Part shown: one piece after another, positions 12,211 to 53,490 of the stretch
Numbering within the stretch: the first letter of the stretch is position 1
Layout: every line of letters starts with the position of its first letter
Assembly (NCBI RefSeq): GCF_003697845.1
Contig: NZ_RDQE01000005.1
Location: 1-64,000, forward strand
Length of the DNA stretch: 64,000 nt
Direction: 5' to 3'
Source of the DNA: Halobellus captivus
GTDB lineage: Archaea > Halobacteriota > Halobacteria > Halobacteriales > Haloferacaceae
Notes under the pieces: model-generated
What the model was told of the DNA's origin: nothing
Databases searched by the model: none
The model's input: the letters and a program-made list of their open reading frames with translations, nothing else
Translations under genes and position numbers: made by a program

Positions 12211-13347
12211 TCAGGTCTCCTCCGCCGGCTCGACCTCGCCGTCGGGGACCTCCTCGTCCATCTCCTGGATGACCTCGTCGGCCGACCGGATGTTCGAGCC
12301 CGCGTCGCCGGACTTGACCGCCTCGGCCTCCTTCTCGAGCTCCTCGACGTCCATCTGGGCCGCCTCGTCGATCTGGCCGAGGATCTCGTCGATGTCGTCG
12401 AGCCCGAGCATCTTGCGGGTGTCGTCGTCGAACTCGAGGCCCTCGAGGCCGTCCATCTGCTGGACGTCGGAGCCGGAGAGTGCCTTGCCGTAGCGCCCGA
12501 CGAGGCTCGTGAGCTCCTGGGGTAGCACGAACGTGGTCGACTCGCCCTTGCCGATCTCCTCCAACGTCTCCATGCCGCGCTCGATGATGGCCCGCTCGCC
12601 CATCGACTCGGCCGACCGCGCGCGCAACACGGTCGAGATGGAGTCCCCCTGCGCCTCGAGGATCTGGCTCTGTTTCTCCCCCTGCGCGCGGATGATGTTC
12701 GACTGCTTGTCACCCTCGGCCTGCTCGACGGCCGACCGGCGTTCCCCCTGCGCCTCGAGGATCATCGCCCGACGGCGACGCTCCGCGGAGGTCTGTTGCT
12801 CCATCGCCTGCTGGACGTCCTTCGAGGGGTTGACCTCGCGGACCTCGACGCTCTCGACGCGGATCCCCCACTCGTCCGTCGGCTCGTCCAGCTCCTTGCG
12901 GATCTTCGCGTTGATCTCCTGACGCTTGTTCAGCGTGTCGTCGAGCTCCATGTCGCCGAGGACGGCCCGGAGCGTGGTCTGTGCCAGGTTCGAGACGGCG
13001 TTCTTGTAGTTGTCGACCTCGAGGAACGCCTTCTTCGCGTCCATCACCTTGATGTAGACCACCGCGTCCGCGGTCACCGGCGAGTTGTCCCGCGTGATCG
13101 CCTCCTGACGCGGCACGTCCAGCGTCTGCGTCCGCATGTCGAACGCGTACGTCCGCGACACGAACGGCGGGATGAAGTTGATTCCGGGCTCGAGCAGCTT
13201 CCGGTACTCGCCGAACACCGTCAACGCCTCCTTGTCGTAGGCGTCGACGATCGCGACGGACTGCCAGAGCGTGACGACCACCAACATGAGAAACAGGAGG
13301 CCGACGCTCACCAGTCCGAAACCGGCTTGGAGGGGAAGTGGGTCCAT
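12211..13347 (-). CDS. SPFH/band 7 (stomatin-prohibitin) membrane protein
   Basis: This 378-residue protein has one N-terminal membrane helix (about residues 8-30) followed by an SPFH domain (VDAYDKEALTVFGEYRKLLEPGINFIPPFV, then the QTLDVPRQEAITRDNSPVTADA core). A long charged helix follows (residues 180-270; repeated QAEGDKQSNIIRAQGEKQSQILEAQGD), then an acidic tail of about 90 residues. SPFH proteins form membrane-associated oligomers that scaffold proteases and lipid domains. A TATA-like CTATTAAG lies about 25 bp upstream. No NfeD or protease partner is adjacent. Confidence 0.9.
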   Translation of the reverse strand: MDPLPLQAGFGLVSVGLLFLMLVVVTLWQSVAIVDAYDKEALTVFGEYRKLLEPGINFIPPFVSRTYAFDMRTQTLDVPRQEAITRDNSPVTADAVVYIKVMDAKKAFLEVDNYKNAVSNLAQTTLRAVLGDMELDDTLNKRQEINAKIRKELDEPTDEWGIRVESVEVREVNPSKDVQQAMEQQTSAERRRRAMILEAQGERRSAVEQAEGDKQSNIIRAQGEKQSQILEAQGDSISTVLRARSAESMGERAIIERGMETLEEIGKGESTTFVLPQELTSLVGRYGKALSGSDVQQMDGLEGLEFDDDTRKMLGLDDIDEILGQIDEAAQMDVEELEKEAEAVKSGDAGSNIRSADEVIQEMDEEVPDGEVEPAEET

Positions 13348-32316: not shown

Positions 32317-32465
32317 ACGCGGCCGGCCGAACCCCGGGGAAAGCGGGCCGACCACGCACGTCGAAGTCCCGCGAATCGGGATCGCCCGGAACGCGGTTCG
32401 AACACGATGTGACGCGATAGCAACCGTTAAGTGTTCCATATAAGATCGTGAGGATAGACTCACAG

Positions 32466-34088
32466 ATGCAGTCCAACGTCCCGACGGAGTACCTGCCAGA
32501 CGAATCGGACTCGCCGGACTACGTGTACACCCTCCCCGAGGCGCACTATCCCAAGCACGTCAACACGACCGACCAGCTCGTCGATCGGCACGTCCGCGAG
32601 GGACGGGGGGACAACGTCGCCGTCCACTTCGAGGACGAGACGATAACCTACGAGGAGCTTCAAGAGCGGGTGAACCGCATGGGCAACGCCCTTCGGGACC
32701 TCGGCGTCGAGTCGGGCGACCGGGTCCTGGTCCGGTTCCCGAACCGGCCCGAGCCGCTGATCACGTGTCTCGCGGTCCAGAAGATCGGCGGCGTCGCCAT
32801 GCCGTCGATGAAGCTGCTCCGCGCCAAGGAGCTGCGGTACATCGTCAACAATGCCGAGGCGACCACGATCGTCGTCTACGACGACCTCCTGGACGAGGTG
32901 GACGAGGCGCTGCCCGATCTGGACACCGTTGAGGACGTCGTCGTCGCGGAACGGAACGGGATCGAACACGACCACCACGGTTACGACGAGCTGACGGACG
33001 CGGCGAGTCCGGAGCTCGAGGCCGCGGACACCGAGCGCGACGACCTGGCGTTGATGCTGTACACGAGCGGGACGACGGGTCGTCCGAAGGGCGCGATCCA
33101 CACCCACCGGCAGATGCTCGCGACGGCGGACACGTACGCGCGGTACTGCCTCGAGCCGACCGAGGAGGACGTGTTCGGCGGCAACCCGCCGCTCCCGTTC
33201 GCGTACGGGTTCGGCGATCTCGTCACGTTCCCACTGCGGTTCGGCGCGAGCACGAGCCTGACGCAGGACGCGAGCCCGGGCGATCTGCTCGAGTCGGTCG
33301 AGAACCACGGGATCACGGTGCTGTGTTCGATCCCCACGGCGTTCAACCAGATGCTCGCGAAGTTCCCGGACGGGCCCGAGGAGTACGACGTCTCCTCGCT
33401 GCGGGTCGGGATGAGCGCCGGCGAGCCGCTGACGCCGACGACGTTCGAGCAGTTCCGCGAGGAGTACGGGATCAAACTGCTCGACGGGATCGGAACCACC
33501 GAGATGCTCCACATCTTCGTGAGCCACCACCACGAGGGGGAGGTCGACCCGACGGCGACGGGGTTCCCGGTACCGGGCTACGAGTGTAAGATCATCGACC
33601 CGGACACCGGCGAGGAGTGCGACCGGGGCGAGCCCGGGATGCTCGCGGTCCGCGGACCGACGGGCATCGAGTACTGGAACCGCCCGGAGAAACAGGACGA
33701 CGCGGTCGAGGACGGCTGGTCGTTCCCCGGCGACATCTTCGCCCAGCGCGAGGACGGTCGGCTGGAGTACAAGTCGCGCGCGGACGACCTCATCGTCTCC
33801 AGCGGCTACAACATTCCCGGTCCGGAGGTCGAAGCGGTCGTGGAGGAACACGAGGACGTCGCCGAGGTCGCCGTCGTGGGCGCTCCCCACGAACAGCGCG
33901 GCGAGATCGTGAAGGCGTTCGTCGTCACGGCCGACGGCGTGACCGGTGACGACGAGCTCGTGGAGGAGATCCAGAACCACGTGAAGAACACGCTCGCACC
34001 GTACAAGTACCCGCGTGCGGTCGAGTTCGTGTCGGAGCTGCCCCGGACCGAGACCGGCAAGATCCGTCGCAAGGAACTCCGCGAATAG
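32466..34088 (+). CDS. AMP-forming acyl/aryl-CoA ligase (benzoate- or 2-aminobenzoate-CoA ligase-like)
   Basis: This 540-residue adenylate-forming ligase activates a carboxylic acid to its CoA thioester. Motifs are LMLYTSGTTGRPKGAIHTHR (ATP loop, near residue 195), DGIGTTEMLHIF (near 340), GWSFPGDIF and the C-terminal RTETGKIRRKEL with the catalytic Lys. The spacing and the PLPFAYGFGDLVTFPLRFGAS segment recall benzoate/2-aminobenzoate-CoA ligases more than phenylacetate-CoA ligase PaaK. A CCATATAAG box about 27 bp upstream supports the ATG. Substrate specificity is not provable here. Confidence 0.85.
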   Translation: MQSNVPTEYLPDESDSPDYVYTLPEAHYPKHVNTTDQLVDRHVREGRGDNVAVHFEDETITYEELQERVNRMGNALRDLGVESGDRVLVRFPNRPEPLITCLAVQKIGGVAMPSMKLLRAKELRYIVNNAEATTIVVYDDLLDEVDEALPDLDTVEDVVVAERNGIEHDHHGYDELTDAASPELEAADTERDDLALMLYTSGTTGRPKGAIHTHRQMLATADTYARYCLEPTEEDVFGGNPPLPFAYGFGDLVTFPLRFGASTSLTQDASPGDLLESVENHGITVLCSIPTAFNQMLAKFPDGPEEYDVSSLRVGMSAGEPLTPTTFEQFREEYGIKLLDGIGTTEMLHIFVSHHHEGEVDPTATGFPVPGYECKIIDPDTGEECDRGEPGMLAVRGPTGIEYWNRPEKQDDAVEDGWSFPGDIFAQREDGRLEYKSRADDLIVSSGYNIPGPEVEAVVEEHEDVAEVAVVGAPHEQRGEIVKAFVVTADGVTGDDELVEEIQNHVKNTLAPYKYPRAVEFVSELPRTETGKIRRKELRE

Positions 34089-34249: not shown

Positions 34250-34633
34250 GTATACGAACATGTATACAGAGATCCCACCGCTCGGATCGACGGTCGCGTT
34301 CCGTCGGTTCACGTCGTCCAACCAAGGGAGAAGGTCGTCGATATCGACCCGTGTTCGGACGAGAGAACGCCGTTATTCCGGGTCGTCATCCCCTAGGATG
34401 CCGTATACATTTTCGTATACATCGTGATCGGCAGGCGAGTCGTTTGTGAACGAACGACACTCAGGGTTGGAACGAAGGCGGGATCTCGTCGGAACGTGGT
34501 TCGCCGGCCAGTAATAACACAGACTAAGTATGTGTTATACTTTCGCCGGCGATGGTGGACTCGTAACACGGACTAAGGGCGTGTCTTCAATTGGCCGGAC
34601 CCGTATTCGATTTTCGTATACGATACCGTATAC
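34250..34633. repeat. Three exact GTATAC-N6-GTATAC elements
   Basis: Pairs of the palindrome GTATAC separated by exactly six bases occur at 34250-34267, 34403-34420 and 34616-34633. The spacers differ (GAACAT, ATTTTC, GATACC), so only the paired hexamers are conserved, which is how operator sites look. A single GTATAC with a weaker partner also lies upstream of the paaA TATA box. Confidence 0.75.
34514..34587. repeat. Duplicated palindromic element around GACTAAG
   Basis: ATAACACA-N9-TGTGTTAT is a perfect inverted repeat at 34514-34538 with GACTAAG in its spacer. A diverged copy (TAACACG, GACTAAGG, GCGTGTC) starts about 50 bp later at 34564. Both are preceded by a CGCCGGC word. Function unknown; binding sites or ends of a decayed mobile element are possible. 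Confidence 0.5.
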
Positions 34634-34785: not shown

Positions 34786-35070
34786 TCAGGGACTTTCGTC
34801 GGTCTCTAACTTGAGATCCGAGAGGGGCCGGGCGATACAGGTCAGCACGTAGCCCTCCTCCTTCTCGCCGTCCGAGAGGAACATCCCCTCGGTCTGGTCG
34901 ACCTCGCCGTCGCCCTCACACTTCGCCGAGCAGACGCCGCAGACGCCCATTCGACACTGGTAGGGCAGGTCGATGCCGACCTCCTCGGCGGCCTCGAGAA
35001 CCGACTTGTCGGCCGGGACCTCGATGGTCTTCCCGCGGTCGGCGAGCTCGACCGTGTACGTCTCCACCAT
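34786..35070 (-). CDS. 2Fe-2S plant-type ferredoxin
   Basis: This 94-residue ferredoxin has the plant-type cluster motif: QCRMGVCGVCSAKC near residue 39 gives C-x4-C-x2-C, and the fourth Cys is in YVLTCIARP near 77. It resembles the C-terminal ferredoxin domain of the epoxidase reductase PaaE, but here it stands alone with no flavin/NAD domain. It lies 670 bp from paaA on the opposite strand, next to an acetyltransferase gene. It is the likely electron donor to the PaaABC oxygenase, by context. Confidence 0.9.
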   Translation of the reverse strand: MVETYTVELADRGKTIEVPADKSVLEAAEEVGIDLPYQCRMGVCGVCSAKCEGDGEVDQTEGMFLSDGEKEEGYVLTCIARPLSDLKLETDESP

Positions 35071-35076
35071 GGCGCT

Positions 35077-35571
35077 CTACCGGTTCCCCGCGGACGTCTC
35101 GTAGACGTGCTCGACCGGCTCGAAGCCGAGCTCCTCGTAGAGCGCCGCGGCCTCGTCGTCGCCCTCGAGCACGTCGATACGGAAGAACTCCACCTCGTGG
35201 GGGGGTCCGGCGAACCACTCCTCGGCCGCCTCAAGGAGCGCCTTCCCGACGCCCTGGCCGCGGTGGTCGGGATCGACGTAGTGGCCGTTGATGTAGCCGT
35301 GGTCCTGGAGCCGGAAGATCGGGTGATCGCCCATCACGCGGGCCTCGAGGACGCCGATCAGTTCCCCGGAGGACTCCGCCTCCGCGACGACGACGGTGCC
35401 GTACTTGGAGTCGACGAGTTGGTTCTCGAAGTAGCGGATCCAGCGCTCGTCCGCGTTCTCCTTGTGACGGTATCGGTCGTCGTACTCCGAGAGGTGATCG
35501 GTGAACCCGTGCCAGAGCTCGATCAGCTCCTCCGCGTCCTCGCTCGTCGCGTGCCGCACTTCGTATGCCAT
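35077..35571 (-). CDS. GNAT-family N-acetyltransferase
   Basis: This 164-residue GNAT protein starts YEVRHATSEDAEELIELW. The acetyl-CoA motif VDPDHRGQGVGKALLEAAEEW lies near residue 100, and ALYEELGFEPVE is at the end. The ATG is supported by a TATA-like TTTTTTATC about 27 bp upstream. It ends six bases before the ferredoxin start, so the two are probably cotranscribed, but whether it acts in the aromatic pathway is unknown. Confidence 0.85.
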   Translation of the reverse strand: MAYEVRHATSEDAEELIELWHGFTDHLSEYDDRYRHKENADERWIRYFENQLVDSKYGTVVVAEAESSGELIGVLEARVMGDHPIFRLQDHGYINGHYVDPDHRGQGVGKALLEAAEEWFAGPPHEVEFFRIDVLEGDDEAAALYEELGFEPVEHVYETSAGNR

Positions 35572-35669: not shown

Positions 35670-35730
35670 GATACGCGAATCGTATACAGAAAACAATTAT
35701 AATGCTGGCCTCCGAACGGGTAATTAGCCG
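35670..35730 (+). promoter_or_regulatory. paaA promoter with a GTATAC half-site
   Basis: TATA-like sequences (TTATAAT at about 35697-35703, TAATTAG at about 35721) precede paaA. Just upstream, at 35671-35685, ATACG-N5-CGTAT forms an inverted repeat that overlaps a GTATAC at 35682, the hexamer seen in pairs in the nearby repeat region. A regulator binding here would contact the BRE/TATA area. The regulator is unidentified. Confidence 0.5.
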
Positions 35731-35738
35731 ATCCGACC

Positions 35739-36659
35739 ATGCCCACAGAGAAACAGTTGAAAAAGCAGCTTCAAAACGGGAAGATGATCGAGAGCGAGGC
35801 GGAGATGACCGAGGGCTACAAGAAGGCCCTCAAACGGATCCTGCTCGTCTCCGGGGACACCGAGCTGATGAGCGCGCCCGCCTACTACGACCAGTCGCTG
35901 AACGCGCCGTCGATCGACGCCCGCGCGTCGTGTATCAGCGTCGTCCAGGACGAGCTCGGCCACGGTCACATCGCCTACCGCCTGCTGGAGGACCTCGGCG
36001 AGGACCGCCAGGAGCTGATCTACGAGCGCGAGCCCCACGAGTTCCGGAACACGTACGGGTTCGACCAGCACCTCGAGAACTTCGCGGAGCTCGTGACCGC
36101 TCACGGCATCTTCGACCGCGCGGGGATGGTGCTTCTCGGCGACATCTACGAGAACACGTCGTACGCGCCCTGGAAGCGCGCGCTGACGAAGGTCGAGAAG
36201 GAGGAGCAGTTCCACCTCCGGCACGGCGAGACGTGGATGCGTCGACTCGCCAACAAGAGCGACAAGACCCACGGGCGGCTCCAGGACGCCGTCGACTGGA
36301 TGTTCCCCATGGGCGTCGAGTGGTTCGGCATGTCCGACGAACAGAAGCGCAACACCGAGCAGCTCGACTACCGCATCAAGGGCAAATCGAACGACGAGCT
36401 CAGACAGGACTGGCTCTCGCGGACGCTCCCGCTGATGGAGGAGCTCGAACTCGACGTGCCGGCCCACTACGACGAGGAGGCGGACGAGTACGTCCTCGAG
36501 TACGACATGCCGGTCGCGTTCGACCAGGAGAACAAGGAGTGGCGCTTCGACGAGCCGATCTCCTGGGACGACGTGATCGACCGCTGGCGCAACCGCGGGC
36601 CGGCCAACGAGAAGTACGTGAACATGATCCAGTCCGGTGAAGTGAGCGTGCAGGTGTAA
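35739..36659 (+). CDS. paaA: Ring-1,2-phenylacetyl-CoA epoxidase, catalytic subunit PaaA
   Basis: This 306-residue diiron oxygenase catalytic subunit epoxidises the CoA-activated aromatic ring. The four-helix bundle ligands are visible as VVQDELGHGHIAY (Glu about 72, His about 75, the positions known in bacterial PaaA) and EKEEQFHLRHGE near residue 152. The N-terminus is PaaA-like (ESEAEMTEGYKKALKRIL). It leads paaA-paaD-paaB-paaC-zinc ribbon with gaps of a few bases. No PaaE reductase is encoded next to it. Confidence 0.93.
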   Translation: MPTEKQLKKQLQNGKMIESEAEMTEGYKKALKRILLVSGDTELMSAPAYYDQSLNAPSIDARASCISVVQDELGHGHIAYRLLEDLGEDRQELIYEREPHEFRNTYGFDQHLENFAELVTAHGIFDRAGMVLLGDIYENTSYAPWKRALTKVEKEEQFHLRHGETWMRRLANKSDKTHGRLQDAVDWMFPMGVEWFGMSDEQKRNTEQLDYRIKGKSNDELRQDWLSRTLPLMEELELDVPAHYDEEADEYVLEYDMPVAFDQENKEWRFDEPISWDDVIDRWRNRGPANEKYVNMIQSGEVSVQV

Positions 36660-40683: not shown

Positions 40684-40739
40684 ACTTTGATCTATGAATA
40701 ACCATAGATTTATGTTTTGCTCTCCCGTTGAAGTGATCG
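40684..40739. promoter_or_regulatory. Shared divergent promoter in the TnpB element
   Basis: One AT-rich patch (CATAGATTTATG, about 40702-40715) lies 27-30 bp from both the tnpB ATG at 40740 and the GTG of the small ORF at 40683, so it can serve as TATA element in both directions. Confidence 0.5.
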
Positions 40740-42013
40740 ATGAAGCGGACCAACACGTTCGACGTGGTTCCTCAGTCCGAGCAGGACGAGGAGTTGCTTC
40801 GACGCCTGTTGGACGCTTCTGCCGCTCTCTGGAACGAAATCAACTACGAGCGTCGCGAGAACTACGCCGATCCCGACGCCGACGTGTGGGAGATAAGCGA
40901 GTACCGCGGCCGCTACGGCGGGACGCTCGGCGCGTCAACCGTTCAGCAAATCGAACGGAAGAACCGCGAAGCGTGGCGGTCGTTCTTCGCGCTCCAACAG
41001 AAGGGCAAAGCCAACGGCAAACCCAGTTTCTGGGCAACGCCGAAGACGGGCGGGAACTCAGAACGTACATCCGCAATACGTCATACTCGGTCGAGTGGGG
41101 CGACTACTCTCGGCTCGAAATTCTGGTCGGAAAAGACTTGAAAGACGAGTACGGGCTTGGGCGTCAAGAGCGCCTGCGGCTCGAAGTCCGAGGCGAGCCC
41201 AACTGGACGGAGTACGACAAGCAGGGTCGGTTGGAGTTGTTCTACGACGAAAACGCACAGACATTCAGGGCCTTTCAGCCAGTCACTATCGACAATTCTC
41301 GACTGGTACACCCACTGGCCGACGAAACGGCCGCGCTGGATATTGGTGCGAACAACCTCGTCGCCTGTACGACTACGACCGGCCAGCGGTATCTCTACGA
41401 GGGGCGCGACTTGTTCGAGCGGTTCCGCGAGACGACCCGAGAGATCGCCCGGCTACAATCGCTCTTGGACGACGGTCGGTACAGCAGCCACCGGATACGC
41501 TCGCTGTATCGGCGGCGAACGCGACGACGCGATCACGCTCAAGACGCACTCGCTCGCGACCTCATCGAACGCCTGTACGAGGACGGCGTCGCCACGGTGT
41601 ACGTCGGCGCGTTGACGGACGTACTCGACACACACTGGTCGGTGGAGACGAACGCGAAGACGCACAATTTCCGGGCGTTCCGGGCGTTCATAGACCGCCT
41701 CGCGTGTACCGCCGAGGAGTACGGTATTTCGGTGGAGGTGCGATCGGAAGCATGGACCTCACAAGAGTGCCCGAACTGCGGGTCAACCGACCGGACGACG
41801 CGCCACCGAGACACGCTGACGTGTTTGTGCGGGTTCGAGGGACACGCGGACCTTACGGCGTCAGAGACGTTCCTGAAGCGGCAGACGACGGTAACACGGC
41901 CGATGGCACGGCCTGTGCGCCTCAAGTGGAACGACCACGAATGGTCAGAGTCACCACGCTCTTGTTCCAACGAGGAGCGCACGAACCCGCAAGTTGCCTC
42001 CGTGGGCCGGTAA
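40740..42013 (+). pseudogene. tnpB: tnpB, RNA-guided-nuclease-type protein gene with a frameshift
   Basis: Frame 1 encodes the N-terminus ([15 protein letters not shown] to GKPSFW) and the rest continues one frame over from [23 protein letters not shown] to the stop at 42013. The break is at about 41031-41035, where TTCTGGGCAAC looks like TTCTGGGGCAAC with one G lost. Together they cover a full IS1341-type TnpB, with [12 protein letters not shown] (first RuvC Asp), CPNCGS...[12 protein letters not shown] (zinc finger and last Asp). The second acidic position reads YVGALTDVL, with Ala where I would expect an acidic residue. Either the gene is dead or the G run is a sequencing error. Confidence 0.85.
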
Positions 42014-49930: not shown

Positions 49931-51429
49931 GGTTCGACCTCCGTCGGGTCGATCCCCGGCAGCCCGTCGGGGTCCGCGCCCGCCCCGGCGAGCAGCGTCC
50001 GCGCCCAGTACCGCGTCTCCCCGTCGGCCGCCTCCGCGGCCGCCTCCGCGTCGTCGTCGCGGTCGCGGGTGGCGTCGATGTACGCCTTGGCGGTCTTCGC
50101 CTTCGAGGTGCCCGTCTGGGCGTTCCCCTTCTCGTCCGGCGTCTGGTAGATGTTCAACGGCACCTTCGGCATCGACGCGACGCCGAACTGGTGGAAGTCC
50201 TCGTCGGGGTCCGCGTACAGCGCGAGCGCCTCCAGTACGGCGCGCTGGTCGAGCGGGTCGACGTCGCCGTCGACGAACACGAAGAAGTCGACGTGGAGCA
50301 TGCCCCAGGTGGTGAAGATGAAGTTCGCCAGCTCGTGGAGCTCGCCGGGGGCCGTCGCGTCCGTCGAGATGACGTAGACGGTCCGCGGCGTCGACTGCCA
50401 GGGGACACAGCGGTCCACGTCGAACCCGCCGGCGCGCAGCCCGAGCGTCGCGTCCGGCCCGACACAGCCGATCTCCATCGAGCTGGTGGAGTTCTCCGTG
50501 TGACCCACGCCCGTCCCCTCGACGCAGAAGGGGATGATCGGGTCCGTCCGTCGGGTGATCGCGGTCACCTCGAGGGCGGGCATCGACCGCCGCGGCCCGT
50601 GCATGTACCCGAAGTAGTCGCCGAAGGGTCCCTCGTCGCGGCGCACGTCGGGACGGATCTCGCCCTCGATGACGAGCTCCGCGTCGGCCGGGACGAGGAG
50701 GTCGTTCGTCTCGCAGGGGACGAGGTCGATCGGCGCGCCCTTCAGGCCGCCGGCGAACTCGGCCTCGCTGCGGCCCGTCGGGATCCACATCACCGAGCTG
50801 TACTGTACCGCCGGGTCGGCCCCGACGACGATCGCGACCGGCATCGGCTCGTCGCGCCGCTCGTACTTGTAGTAGAAGAGGTTCGGCGTCTGCTCGCCGG
50901 CGAGCAGGAGCACGCTCGCGGTCCGGCTGTCGTGGACCATCACGCGGTGATACGAGTAGTCGATCCACGCCGAGTCCGGGTCCGGCGCCACGAGGGTGTG
51001 GAGGTTCGAGTACCGGCCCCCGTCGCCCGCGTGGATGTAGGGCCACGGGTAATCGAGCAGGTCCACGTCCTCGCCGGTCTCGATCACCTCCTTACACGGT
51101 GCGTCGCGCCGATCGACCGTCTCCGGCGACCGCTGGTCCTTGAGCCGCCGGATCGTCTCGTCGTAGAACTCCCGGCGCGAGGCGTCCGGCGGGATGTCCA
51201 TGCCGAGGGCGATCCGGTCCCAGGGCCGGCGCTGTGACCCCCGATACGGGTCGCCGACGAGGCGTGCGCCGTCCGCCGACTCGAAGAGGGGGATCGGGCC
51301 GTCGTTCTCGTTCGCGAGCATCGTGAGCGCGCTCGCCTCCAGGTTCCACGACACCGGGTCGTCGATCCGGACGAGGTCGTCTCGCATCTCCACCTCTCCG
51401 AGGTATCCGCGGAAGCCGTCGACCGTCAT
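49927..51429 (-). CDS. UbiD-type prenylated-FMN decarboxylase
   Basis: This 500-residue reversible (de)carboxylase uses prenylated FMN. The binding region YSNLHTLVAPD...WIDYSYHRVMVHD is near residue 150, and the catalytic segment IEGEIRPDVRRDEGPFGDYFGY near 260 holds the Arg/Glu residues of UbiD. FCVEGTGVGHTENS follows. UbiD enzymes act on aromatic or unsaturated acids such as hydroxybenzoates. It sits between a hypothetical gene and the degenerate UbiD, with overlaps on both sides. No UbiX (prFMN synthase) gene is in the window. Confidence 0.9.
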   Translation of the reverse strand: MTVDGFRGYLGEVEMRDDLVRIDDPVSWNLEASALTMLANENDGPIPLFESADGARLVGDPYRGSQRRPWDRIALGMDIPPDASRREFYDETIRRLKDQRSPETVDRRDAPCKEVIETGEDVDLLDYPWPYIHAGDGGRYSNLHTLVAPDPDSAWIDYSYHRVMVHDSRTASVLLLAGEQTPNLFYYKYERRDEPMPVAIVVGADPAVQYSSVMWIPTGRSEAEFAGGLKGAPIDLVPCETNDLLVPADAELVIEGEIRPDVRRDEGPFGDYFGYMHGPRRSMPALEVTAITRRTDPIIPFCVEGTGVGHTENSTSSMEIGCVGPDATLGLRAGGFDVDRCVPWQSTPRTVYVISTDATAPGELHELANFIFTTWGMLHVDFFVFVDGDVDPLDQRAVLEALALYADPDEDFHQFGVASMPKVPLNIYQTPDEKGNAQTGTSKAKTAKAYIDATRDRDDDAEAAAEAADGETRYWARTLLAGAGADPDGLPGIDPTEVEP

Positions 51430-51923
51430 CCGCCGTCGCTCCCGCCCGTCAGCTCGCGTTGCTCGCGCTGTACCTTCAGGTCGACGTACTCGTTGACGAG
51501 CTCCGGGTACCGTTCGGAGAGGTGTTCGTACATCACCTTTCGACTGGCCTCCGAGATGGACGAGTAGACGCCGACCTCGACGAGGTACGCCAGAAGCGTC
51601 TTCACCTCGTCGGAGCGCGTGTTGATGACGTTCGCCCCCTCGGCCGTCTCCTCCATCACCCGCTCGAGCGTCTCCCTGTCGACGCCCTTCGCGTCGATGT
51701 CGGTCTCCAACACCTCGATGTACCACCGCTCCTCGGTGTTCTCGTGCGGACCGCTGACGACCGTCAACGGGACGGGGTCGGACAGCTCATCGGCGTCCCG
51801 ACTCACGTACGCTCGCGTGCTGAAGATCTCCTTCGTCTCGGCGTCGGTCACCTGGATGCTGACCTCCCCCCGTTCGGGATCGGGCGGGAGGTTGGTCTCG
51901 GACGTGACGTATTCGTCGGGCAT
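51426..51923 (-). CDS. 165-residue protein of the UbiD operon, function unknown
   Basis: I do not recognise this 165-residue protein. The first half looks like a beta-rich domain (GEVSIQVTDAETKEIFSTRAYVS, then ERWYIEVLETDI). The second half is helical and includes LLAYLVEVGVYSSISEASRKVMYEHL, which has the look of a ribbon-helix-helix-like or tetramerising segment. Being first in the operon and overlapping the ubiD gene (ATGA), it could be a third subunit or a regulator. A TATA-like AT patch lies about 35 bp upstream. Confidence 0.7.
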   Translation of the reverse strand: MPDEYVTSETNLPPDPERGEVSIQVTDAETKEIFSTRAYVSRDADELSDPVPLTVVSGPHENTEERWYIEVLETDIDAKGVDRETLERVMEETAEGANVINTRSDEVKTLLAYLVEVGVYSSISEASRKVMYEHLSERYPELVNEYVDLKVQREQRELTGGSDGG

Positions 51924-51983: not shown

Positions 51984-53490
51984 AACCCCGTCCTTCAGGG
52001 TGGGGATACAGCCGACAATCCCCTACAACCTACTGCCGATAGCAAGGCCGAATATTCCACGTTCTCAACCCGAACATATACATATATGAGAGTATAAGTG
52101 ATTATACAGGCGTTTCGAGATGCTGGAAGTCCACCGTACCCACCGAGCGAACATCCTCAACCACTCACAAGTAGAGGAACCGCTCGACCACCACGGGTGG
52201 AGCACCAGCAAACTCTGGAACGTCGCCAACTACCACTCCCGCAACGTGTGGGACGAAACCGGCGAGATTCCCGACCACGGCGACCTCAAAAACGAGTTGA
52301 AGACCCATCCAAAATACAAGGGACTACACAGTCAGTCCAGTCAGCGCGTTCTGGAGGAGCTCGCTGAATCCTTCAACTCATGGTACAAGAAGAGGAAATC
52401 CGATGACCGTGCGAATCCACCCGGCTACCGCAAGAAAAACTACTACGACGACAACGATAATCGCGTCCACGAAGAACACCCGCGTTCAACCGTGACGTGG
52501 AAACAGAACGGCATCAAACACGACTCGAAGAACAACCGCGTCCGTCTCTCGAAAGGCGCGAATCATAAGGAACACCCGAAAGCGTGGGAATACATCCTTG
52601 TCGAGTATGAAACTCGGCCCGGAGTCACTGTCGAGAACCTGCAACAAGTTCGTGCAGTCTACGACAAGGCAAAGGGACGCTGGGAACTCCACCTTGTCTG
52701 CAAAGACGAAATCGAGACGCCTAACGCACCCGGCGAGGAGACGGCGGGTATCGACCTTGGAATCTGTAACTTCGCCACGGTCGCGTACAGCACCGAAGAA
52801 GCTGACCTCTACCCCGGTAATCGCTTGAAGCAGGACGGGTACTACTTCCCGAAAGAAATCGCCAAGTGCGATGATTCAGGCGGTTCTGAAGCGACTCGTC
52901 TCCACGCGAAATGGTCGGAGCGCCGGACCCACTTCTTCCACAGCCTCGCAAAACACATTGTTGAGAAGTGTGTTGAGCGGGGGGTTGGCCGTATCAACGT
53001 CGGAAAACTCGCTGGTGTCCGCGAGGACGACAACGGCAAGTCGAAGAACTGGGGTAAACACGGCAACCTCGACCTGCATGGCTGGGCGTTCGACAGATTC
53101 TCGAACATCCTCGAATACAAGGCGGAGGTCGAAGGCATCGAAGTCGTAGAAGTTTCAGAGCGCGACACGAGTAAGACGTGTTGCGTCTGCGGTAGAGAAG
53201 ACGAGAGTCAGCGTGTCGAGCGTGGGTTGTACGTATGTGAAGCGTGTGATGCTGCGTTCAACGCTGACGTGAATGGGGCGGAGAATATCCGTCTCGACAT
53301 CACTCAAAGTAACTCCGAGTCTGTACCCGGTTTGGGTGGGGATAGGAGTACCGGCTGGTTGGCACAGCCCGGAGTCTACCTTTACGACTTGTCCAGGGGA
53401 TTCTTACCGCGGGAACAAGTGGTAGACTGCAAACCTTAATATCCCAATTGCTGTCGGGAATCCTCGCCCTTCAGGGCGGGGAGGATGTCA
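51984..53490 (+). mobile_element. TnpB-only IS200/IS605-type element (IS1341-like), intact
   Basis: The left hairpin CCCCGTCC-TTCA-GGGTGGGG is at 51986-52005 and the right hairpin CCTCGCCC-TTCA-GGGCGGGG at 53462-53481, followed by AGGATGTCA as in the first element. There is no TnpA. A guide RNA is expected to span the tnpB 3' end and right hairpin, but its limits cannot be read. The element lies just upstream of the UbiD operon and ends about 100 bp from the SMC-like gene. Boundaries are estimates. Confidence 0.78.
52120..53439 (+). CDS. tnpB: TnpB, RNA-guided nuclease-type protein
   Basis: This intact 439-residue TnpB has a basic N-terminal RNA-binding half, a RuvC-like core with GIDLGICNFATVAYS (first Asp, about 215), RINVGKLAGVREDDNGKSKN (second motif region), a zinc finger CCVCGRED...CEACDAAF and NADVNGAENIR (last Asp). 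In well-studied relatives TnpB with its omega-RNA cuts DNA next to a short target motif and helps the element persist. Codon usage is less GC-rich than in neighbouring genes. TATA-like ATTATACA precedes the ATG by about 20 bp. Confidence 0.92.
   Translation: MLEVHRTHRANILNHSQVEEPLDHHGWSTSKLWNVANYHSRNVWDETGEIPDHGDLKNELKTHPKYKGLHSQSSQRVLEELAESFNSWYKKRKSDDRANPPGYRKKNYYDDNDNRVHEEHPRSTVTWKQNGIKHDSKNNRVRLSKGANHKEHPKAWEYILVEYETRPGVTVENLQQVRAVYDKAKGRWELHLVCKDEIETPNAPGEETAGIDLGICNFATVAYSTEEADLYPGNRLKQDGYYFPKEIAKCDDSGGSEATRLHAKWSERRTHFFHSLAKHIVEKCVERGVGRINVGKLAGVREDDNGKSKNWGKHGNLDLHGWAFDRFSNILEYKAEVEGIEVVEVSERDTSKTCCVCGREDESQRVERGLYVCEACDAAFNADVNGAENIRLDITQSNSESVPGLGGDRSTGWLAQPGVYLYDLSRGFLPREQVVDCKP

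Follow-up and report, generated by a model that had tools for sequence, protein, structure and literature searches.

Three copies of one strictly built repeat lie between the ends of two converging genes beside the phenylacetate (paa) genes, and the question raised by this locus is what such sites do so far from any evident promoter. The window (the whole stretch of DNA analysed, 64 kb) carries exact GTATAC-N6-GTATAC elements, here called A sites, at 34250-34267 (GTATAC-GAACAT-GTATAC), 34403-34420 (GTATAC-ATTTTC-GTATAC) and 34616-34633 (GTATAC-GATACC-GTATAC); these are the positions given in the initial annotation, which had also described their spacers, correctly, as unrelated. The third element is a triplet, with an extra half-site at 34603 extending it to GTATTC-N7-GTATAC-GATACC-GTATAC (34603-34633). 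A site 2 begins 153 bp past A site 1, and the exact pair of A site 3 begins 213 bp past A site 2.

The array is flanked by a paaK-like gene for an AMP-binding acyl-CoA ligase (32448-34088, plus strand), which converges on it and ends at 34088, and by fdx, a 2Fe-2S ferredoxin gene (34786-35070, minus strand) whose stop codon at 34786 has the array downstream of it; the convergent intergenic location is thus as first described. Within this gap there are also two palindromes of a second type, the B sites, both placed between A sites 2 and 3, which gives the order A1, A2, B1, B2, A3. B palindrome 1 reads AACACAGACTAAGTATGTGTT (34516-34536) and the imperfect B palindrome 2 reads AACACGGACTAAGGGCGTGTC (34565-34585); the latter lies 28 bp past B1 and 30 bp ahead of the exact pair of A site 3. 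On the far side of fdx, a weak A site, GATAC-N7-GTATAC (35670-35687, plus strand), abuts the BRE/TATA region AGAAAACAATTATAA (35688-35702, plus strand) of paaA (35739-36659, plus strand; PaaA_PaaC family), which is presumably the main target, and the earlier remark on a GTATAC with a weaker partner just before the paaA TATA element was accurate. The array lies about 1.05 kb from this weak paaA site in the window; the distance from array to paaA differs among species. A GNAT acetyltransferase gene (35077-35571 in the window) is found between fdx and paaA in nearly all paa loci examined, including those with a diverged PaaA.

Rarity and conservation of the A sites

The claim that the three elements are far beyond chance was borne out by 100 shuffles of the sequence, in which matches with up to two mismatches numbered 0.31 on average and three or more did not occur in any. 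At up to two mismatches there is no match in the 64 kb beyond the three, and when a spacer of 6 or 7 bp is allowed the sole further non-coding match is the paaA-promoter site; the single hexamer GTATAC is itself over-represented in the window (10 found against 2.4 expected). A genome-wide scatter of the motif would have spoken against a link to catabolic genes, and no such scatter was seen: exact copies number four in the 3.6-Mb genome, the array accounting for three, and there is one further copy with one mismatch. The fourth exact copy is at the end of a contig, in AT-rich sequence that has no clear gene next to it. Among the genomes of the family the exact motif occurs in 22, and in the 13 of these which have paaA the copies are at the paa locus. 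Of 31 paa loci, 24 have relaxed pairs of the form GTWWAC-N6/7-GTWWAC no more than 800 bp downstream of fdx, against three pairs in the neighbouring sequence (about 580 kb); two of these three belong to the promoter, in Haloferax, of the gene for the predicted ribbon-helix-helix (RHH) protein discussed below. In one genome (G024, L029 6826-7261) GTATAC was also seen many times in a roughly 126-bp tandem repeat that is unrelated to paa.

Alignment of the gap with those of Hrr. aquaticum L052 and Hrr. cibi L053 showed that all 36 half-site bases are identical in the three sequences, compared with 149 of the 323 surrounding bases (46%; Fisher p = 7.5e-12), while the B-site bases are also conserved above background (30/42 identical, p = 0.003). 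The order of the A sites is the same in all three and the spacings agree to within 1 bp: A site 1 has its equivalents at 8475 in L052 and 8430 in L053, and in both the following steps are 154 and 212 bp. B palindrome 1 is kept in both relatives, and the gaps on either side of B palindrome 2 are identical in them. A sites just downstream of fdx were also found in Halostella, Halopenitus, Haloarcula, Haloferax, Halobellus and several genera of other families, with a spacer of 6 or 7 bp and, in some lineages, GTAAAC or GTTTAC variants; the motif is therefore present in the orthologous gaps of relatives, where its absence would have weakened the case. A and B sites occur together in 34 of 40 paa loci, a number which includes several close relatives and so represents fewer independent cases, and there are usually one to three B sites per array. 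The convergent paaK-fdx layout is seen in 29 of the 40 loci; over all the haloarchaeal paa loci covered, nearly every one has such an array shortly downstream of fdx. In Haloferax and the compared Halobellus loci the array instead lies between genes of the same direction, and the operon downstream of it is one for an enoyl-CoA hydratase or hydroxyacyl-CoA dehydrogenase; in SHRA6 inversion of the GNAT-fdx pair has placed it upstream of the GNAT gene. In a few paa loci the RHH protein is present and no A pair is recognisable.

These data strongly support the view that the sites are conserved, resemble protein-binding sites and are tied to the paa locus, and that the same motif abuts the paaA BRE/TATA region. 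The recurrence of the motif at paa loci in different haloarchaeal families lends good support to the suggestion that a regulator of aromatic catabolism has its operators here, and from this pattern the A sites are very probably the operator of a regulator local to the paa cluster. Another suggestion made at the outset, that they mark a mobile element, fared differently. Two IS605 OrfB/TnpB genes do occur elsewhere in the window (40694-42013 and 52120-53439); against this, the sites stay in register and their half-sites are perfectly conserved although the rest of the gap diverges, many genera have them at this locus, the gap has no inverted repeats or insertion-sequence genes, and shuffling fails to reproduce the sites. 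An origin as mobile-element remnants or chance repeats is refuted by this cross-species conservation, and we give it practically no weight.

Candidate proteins for the A and B sites

The half-sites of the A sites are 6-bp palindromes repeating every 12-13 bp, about one helical turn, with triplets in places. RHH dimers recognise short palindromes and bind side by side, and this arrangement therefore fits an RHH binder. The candidate, 165 aa long and predicted to end in an RHH domain, is encoded at 51426-51923 on the minus strand next to UbiD-like genes and is conserved in the paa neighbourhood; apart from it, no conserved gene for a classical transcription factor was found in the 20-kb neighbourhood. 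Its distribution follows that of paaA closely. Of 148 family genomes, 23 have the gene, namely 23 of the 26 with paaA and none of the other 122, and in the three paaA genomes without it PaaA is diverged and no A pair is present. Of the 392 genomes of the order, 40 carry the close RHH form (E up to 1e-58); 39 of these are among the 40 whose PaaA is close (E below 1e-170), and one is among the other 352. The genomes that break the pattern are G267, whose RHH copy on the paaA contig is broken or partial, and G365. Some genomes without paaA do have weaker paralogs of the protein. In Halostella, Haloarcula and Halomicroarcula, which are outside the family, the RHH gene was predicted from the motif and then found in all three.

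The C-terminal region shows the RHH pattern, with a strand-like VINTRS, two helices and S-x-SEA-x-R. A profile of the protein matched ParD antitoxins in the PDB (E = 0.006 and 0.011) and also a CopG/Arc/MetJ antidote. With Pfam, ParD_antitoxin was matched by 3 of 12 members at a best E of 0.09, below the family cut-off; no Pfam family passes its cut-off for this protein and no curated family claims it. The predicted monomer model has helices at 105-116 and 123-138 and no modelled strand, the full-length predicted model gave no structural match, and the C-terminal domain folded alone gave a poor model in which the strand is not shown. An exact A pair is present at the RHH gene's own promoter in Haloferax, and no convincing A pair was seen at RHH-gene promoters outside that genus. 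Comparison by eye of the RHH strand residues with the GTATAC or GTAAAC type of site gave no clean rule, and no relatives of the protein were found on viral contigs. Taken together, the co-occurrence and the form of the operator make this protein the probable binder of the A sites, and an RHH-type reader is further supported by analogy with the vapB-like genes described below. The second of the IS605 OrfB (TnpB-like) genes of the aromatic cluster (52120-53439) lies just upstream of the RHH-like gene and may have altered its promoter; the first is at 40694-42013.

The B sites point to a second regulator. Outside Halorubrum most of them fit TTACA-N4-TA-N4-TGTAA, a palindrome common in many haloarchaeal genomes (G018, G042, G019 and G001 among them), with up to 27 copies per genome, while the reversed control is almost absent. 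In four genomes, 21 of the 48 listed palindrome sites lie within 600 bp of an IclR_C domain, where 0.35 would be expected, and the palindrome is thus probably a general haloarchaeal IclR operator. The B sites of most other genera have this form; those of Hrr. aquaticum, Hrr. cibi and the window do not. The Halorubrum type is AACAC-N2-ACTWAG-N3-GTGTT, which in three genomes is found only at the array gap, and an IclR protein was rejected as its binder because Hrr. aquaticum has B sites yet no IclR_C gene. The distance from the last B site to the next A site is 28-30 bp in nine loci, which suggests that the bound A- and B-proteins touch or cooperate. A strict 10.5-bp rule for this gap was discarded, as gaps of 18-19, 28-30 and 38-40 bp look helical and larger ones do not clearly do so.

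Two settings of the A site and the role of the array

The A site occurs in two kinds of setting. At the paaA promoter GTATAC-AGNAAA-N3-TTATA has a constant position in 23 promoters: the GATAC-N7-GTATAC design is common to them, and AGAAAACAATTATAA, or a near variant of it, comes after the right half-site, so that the site is in contact with the BRE/TATA region and its distance from it is fixed. A weak A site directly before the BRE/TATA region would suit repression or activation alike. The array sites have no such neighbours. Neither a TATA element nor a gene start adjoins them as in an ordinary promoter-proximal operator, and the earlier remark that their placement outside a promoter is odd was justified. 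A TATA-like word was found in only 2 of 122 flanks of array sites, compared with 4.4% of random 20-mers from the same gaps; A/T runs of at least 6 are limited to one in the window gap, inside B1, with none in the L052 gap; no conserved short reading frame was detected in the gaps of the window, L052 and L053, and the window gap has no tRNA and no Rfam match of note. Because TATA-like words and A/T runs are so few and no conserved reading frame or RNA family was detected, it is unlikely that the array is an ordinary promoter in Halorubrum.

The explanation that we prefer, and hold tentatively as a whole, is that the A sites are the operator of the local paa regulator, which would act both at the paaA promoter and through the distant array. 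The RHH protein would bind A sites at the array and at the weak paaA-promoter site; the strong array sites, together with the B sites for a second regulator (of IclR type outside Halorubrum), would load the regulator; and the loaded array would contact the weak paaA site about 1.05 kb away via a DNA loop or an extended nucleoprotein complex. Binding by the RHH protein, cooperation with the B-binding protein and action of the array on paaA are what we infer from the arrangement of the sites. Taken by itself, action of the array on paaA from a distance is possible, at somewhat less than even confidence. More doubtful is the general form of the proposal, a distal archaeal regulatory element in which a conserved complex of an RHH-type and a second regulator in the 3' convergent gap steers paaA from about 1 kb in an enhancer- or silencer-like manner. 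A loop to paaA would not be the whole story in Haloferax, the compared Halobellus loci and Haloarcula, since the paaA-promoter A site is missing there, as it is in some other loci.

The most serious rival is a hidden transcript: the array would then control a small RNA, an antisense RNA running into paaK or fdx, or a gene for a very short protein, none of them annotated, and the A and B sites would act in the ordinary way. At 434-1077 bp in the 29 convergent loci, the space between the converging genes is long, B-type sites elsewhere adjoin IclR genes and so are probably in ordinary promoters, and in SHRA6, Haloferax and Halobellus the array does lie upstream of genes, as described above. On the other hand, the sequence between the sites is unconserved, and the scarcity of TATA-like words and A/T runs and the lack of a conserved short frame or Rfam match speak against a hidden transcript as they do against an ordinary promoter; we rate it as less likely than the preferred reading. 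Other explanations are less likely again. That the array merely separates converging transcription units, or titrates the regulator as a decoy reservoir, with no promoter contact, would agree with its position mostly between convergent genes and with the presence of several strong array sites against one weak site at paaA; it is made improbable by the arrays between same-direction genes in Haloferax and Halobellus, and by the exact B-to-A gaps of 28-30 bp in nine loci, which suggest interplay of bound proteins over simple titration.

The sites might also belong to a VapB-type toxin-antitoxin regulator or another RHH protein encoded elsewhere. In eight unrelated genomes without paaA (L040-L046 and L051) an exact GTATAC-N6-GTATAC stands directly before vapB-like RHH antitoxin genes (Pfam VAPB_antitox), which are followed by PIN-domain toxin genes, and there the motif is likely to be an autoregulation operator. 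The genomes with this vapB copy lack paaA, however, and in genomes that have the motif at paa it was not seen before vapB, a distribution that fits two RHH proteins of like specificity and leaves a VapB reader of the paa sites very improbable. The likeness to VapBC autoregulation thus lies in the identical motif, while the vapB copy is a single site at a promoter with no paa genes.

Comparison with known systems

The preferred reading, a local regulator acting at the paaA promoter and through the array, has parallels in bacteria and in haloarchaea. Auxiliary operators that act through DNA looping are known from the lac, gal and ara systems, which resemble the paa locus in combining a weak promoter site with strong sites hundreds of bases off, all sharing one motif. 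The paa array differs in lying about 1 kb off, beyond two other genes and past their ends, in being mixed with a second site type, and in belonging to an archaeon with TBP/TFB promoters; looping here is a proposal. Local control of phenylacetate genes recalls PaaX and PaaR, but the haloarchaeal candidate is an RHH-like protein unrelated to PaaR, which is of the TetR family. Among haloarchaeal RHH transcription factors, CdrS and CdrL act in cell division and bind promoter regions at a symmetric motif (PMC8406309, PMC7439475). They would be like the candidate, given its predicted RHH domain, in being RHH-type regulators with a symmetric motif (the motifs being likened by description), whereas the candidate, at 165 aa, has an extra N-terminal domain and matches CdrS weakly. 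The non-Halorubrum B sites, which fit the palindrome found near IclR genes, are reminiscent of XacR-type haloarchaeal IclR regulators, and the Halorubrum B sites (AACAC..GTGTT) differ from these.

A 2026 survey reported that most Halobacteria with the phenylacetate pathway are without local regulators (PMC13186573); a candidate local paa regulator with almost exact co-occurrence, together with its operator, makes this gap testable. The table of archaeal regulatory elements in one review holds none that is distal to the promoter (PMC7408454). If our reading is true, the array is a control element acting at a distance, of a kind hardly known in archaea, and a promoterless conserved array with its counterpart at a promoter about 1 kb away would lend itself to testing in Haloferax, Halorubrum or Haloarcula species. 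No description of haloarchaeal GTATAC operators was found in the literature covered, which leaves out most subscription papers and makes the novelty provisional. Independently of the array, TTACA-N4-TA-N4-TGTAA could aid the mapping of IclR regulons in haloarchaea. More A sites were observed in Haloferax (L049/L050, about 12320-12500) between a short-chain dehydrogenase gene and transport/acyl-CoA dehydrogenase genes, and the regulon in this genus may thus be wider than paa.
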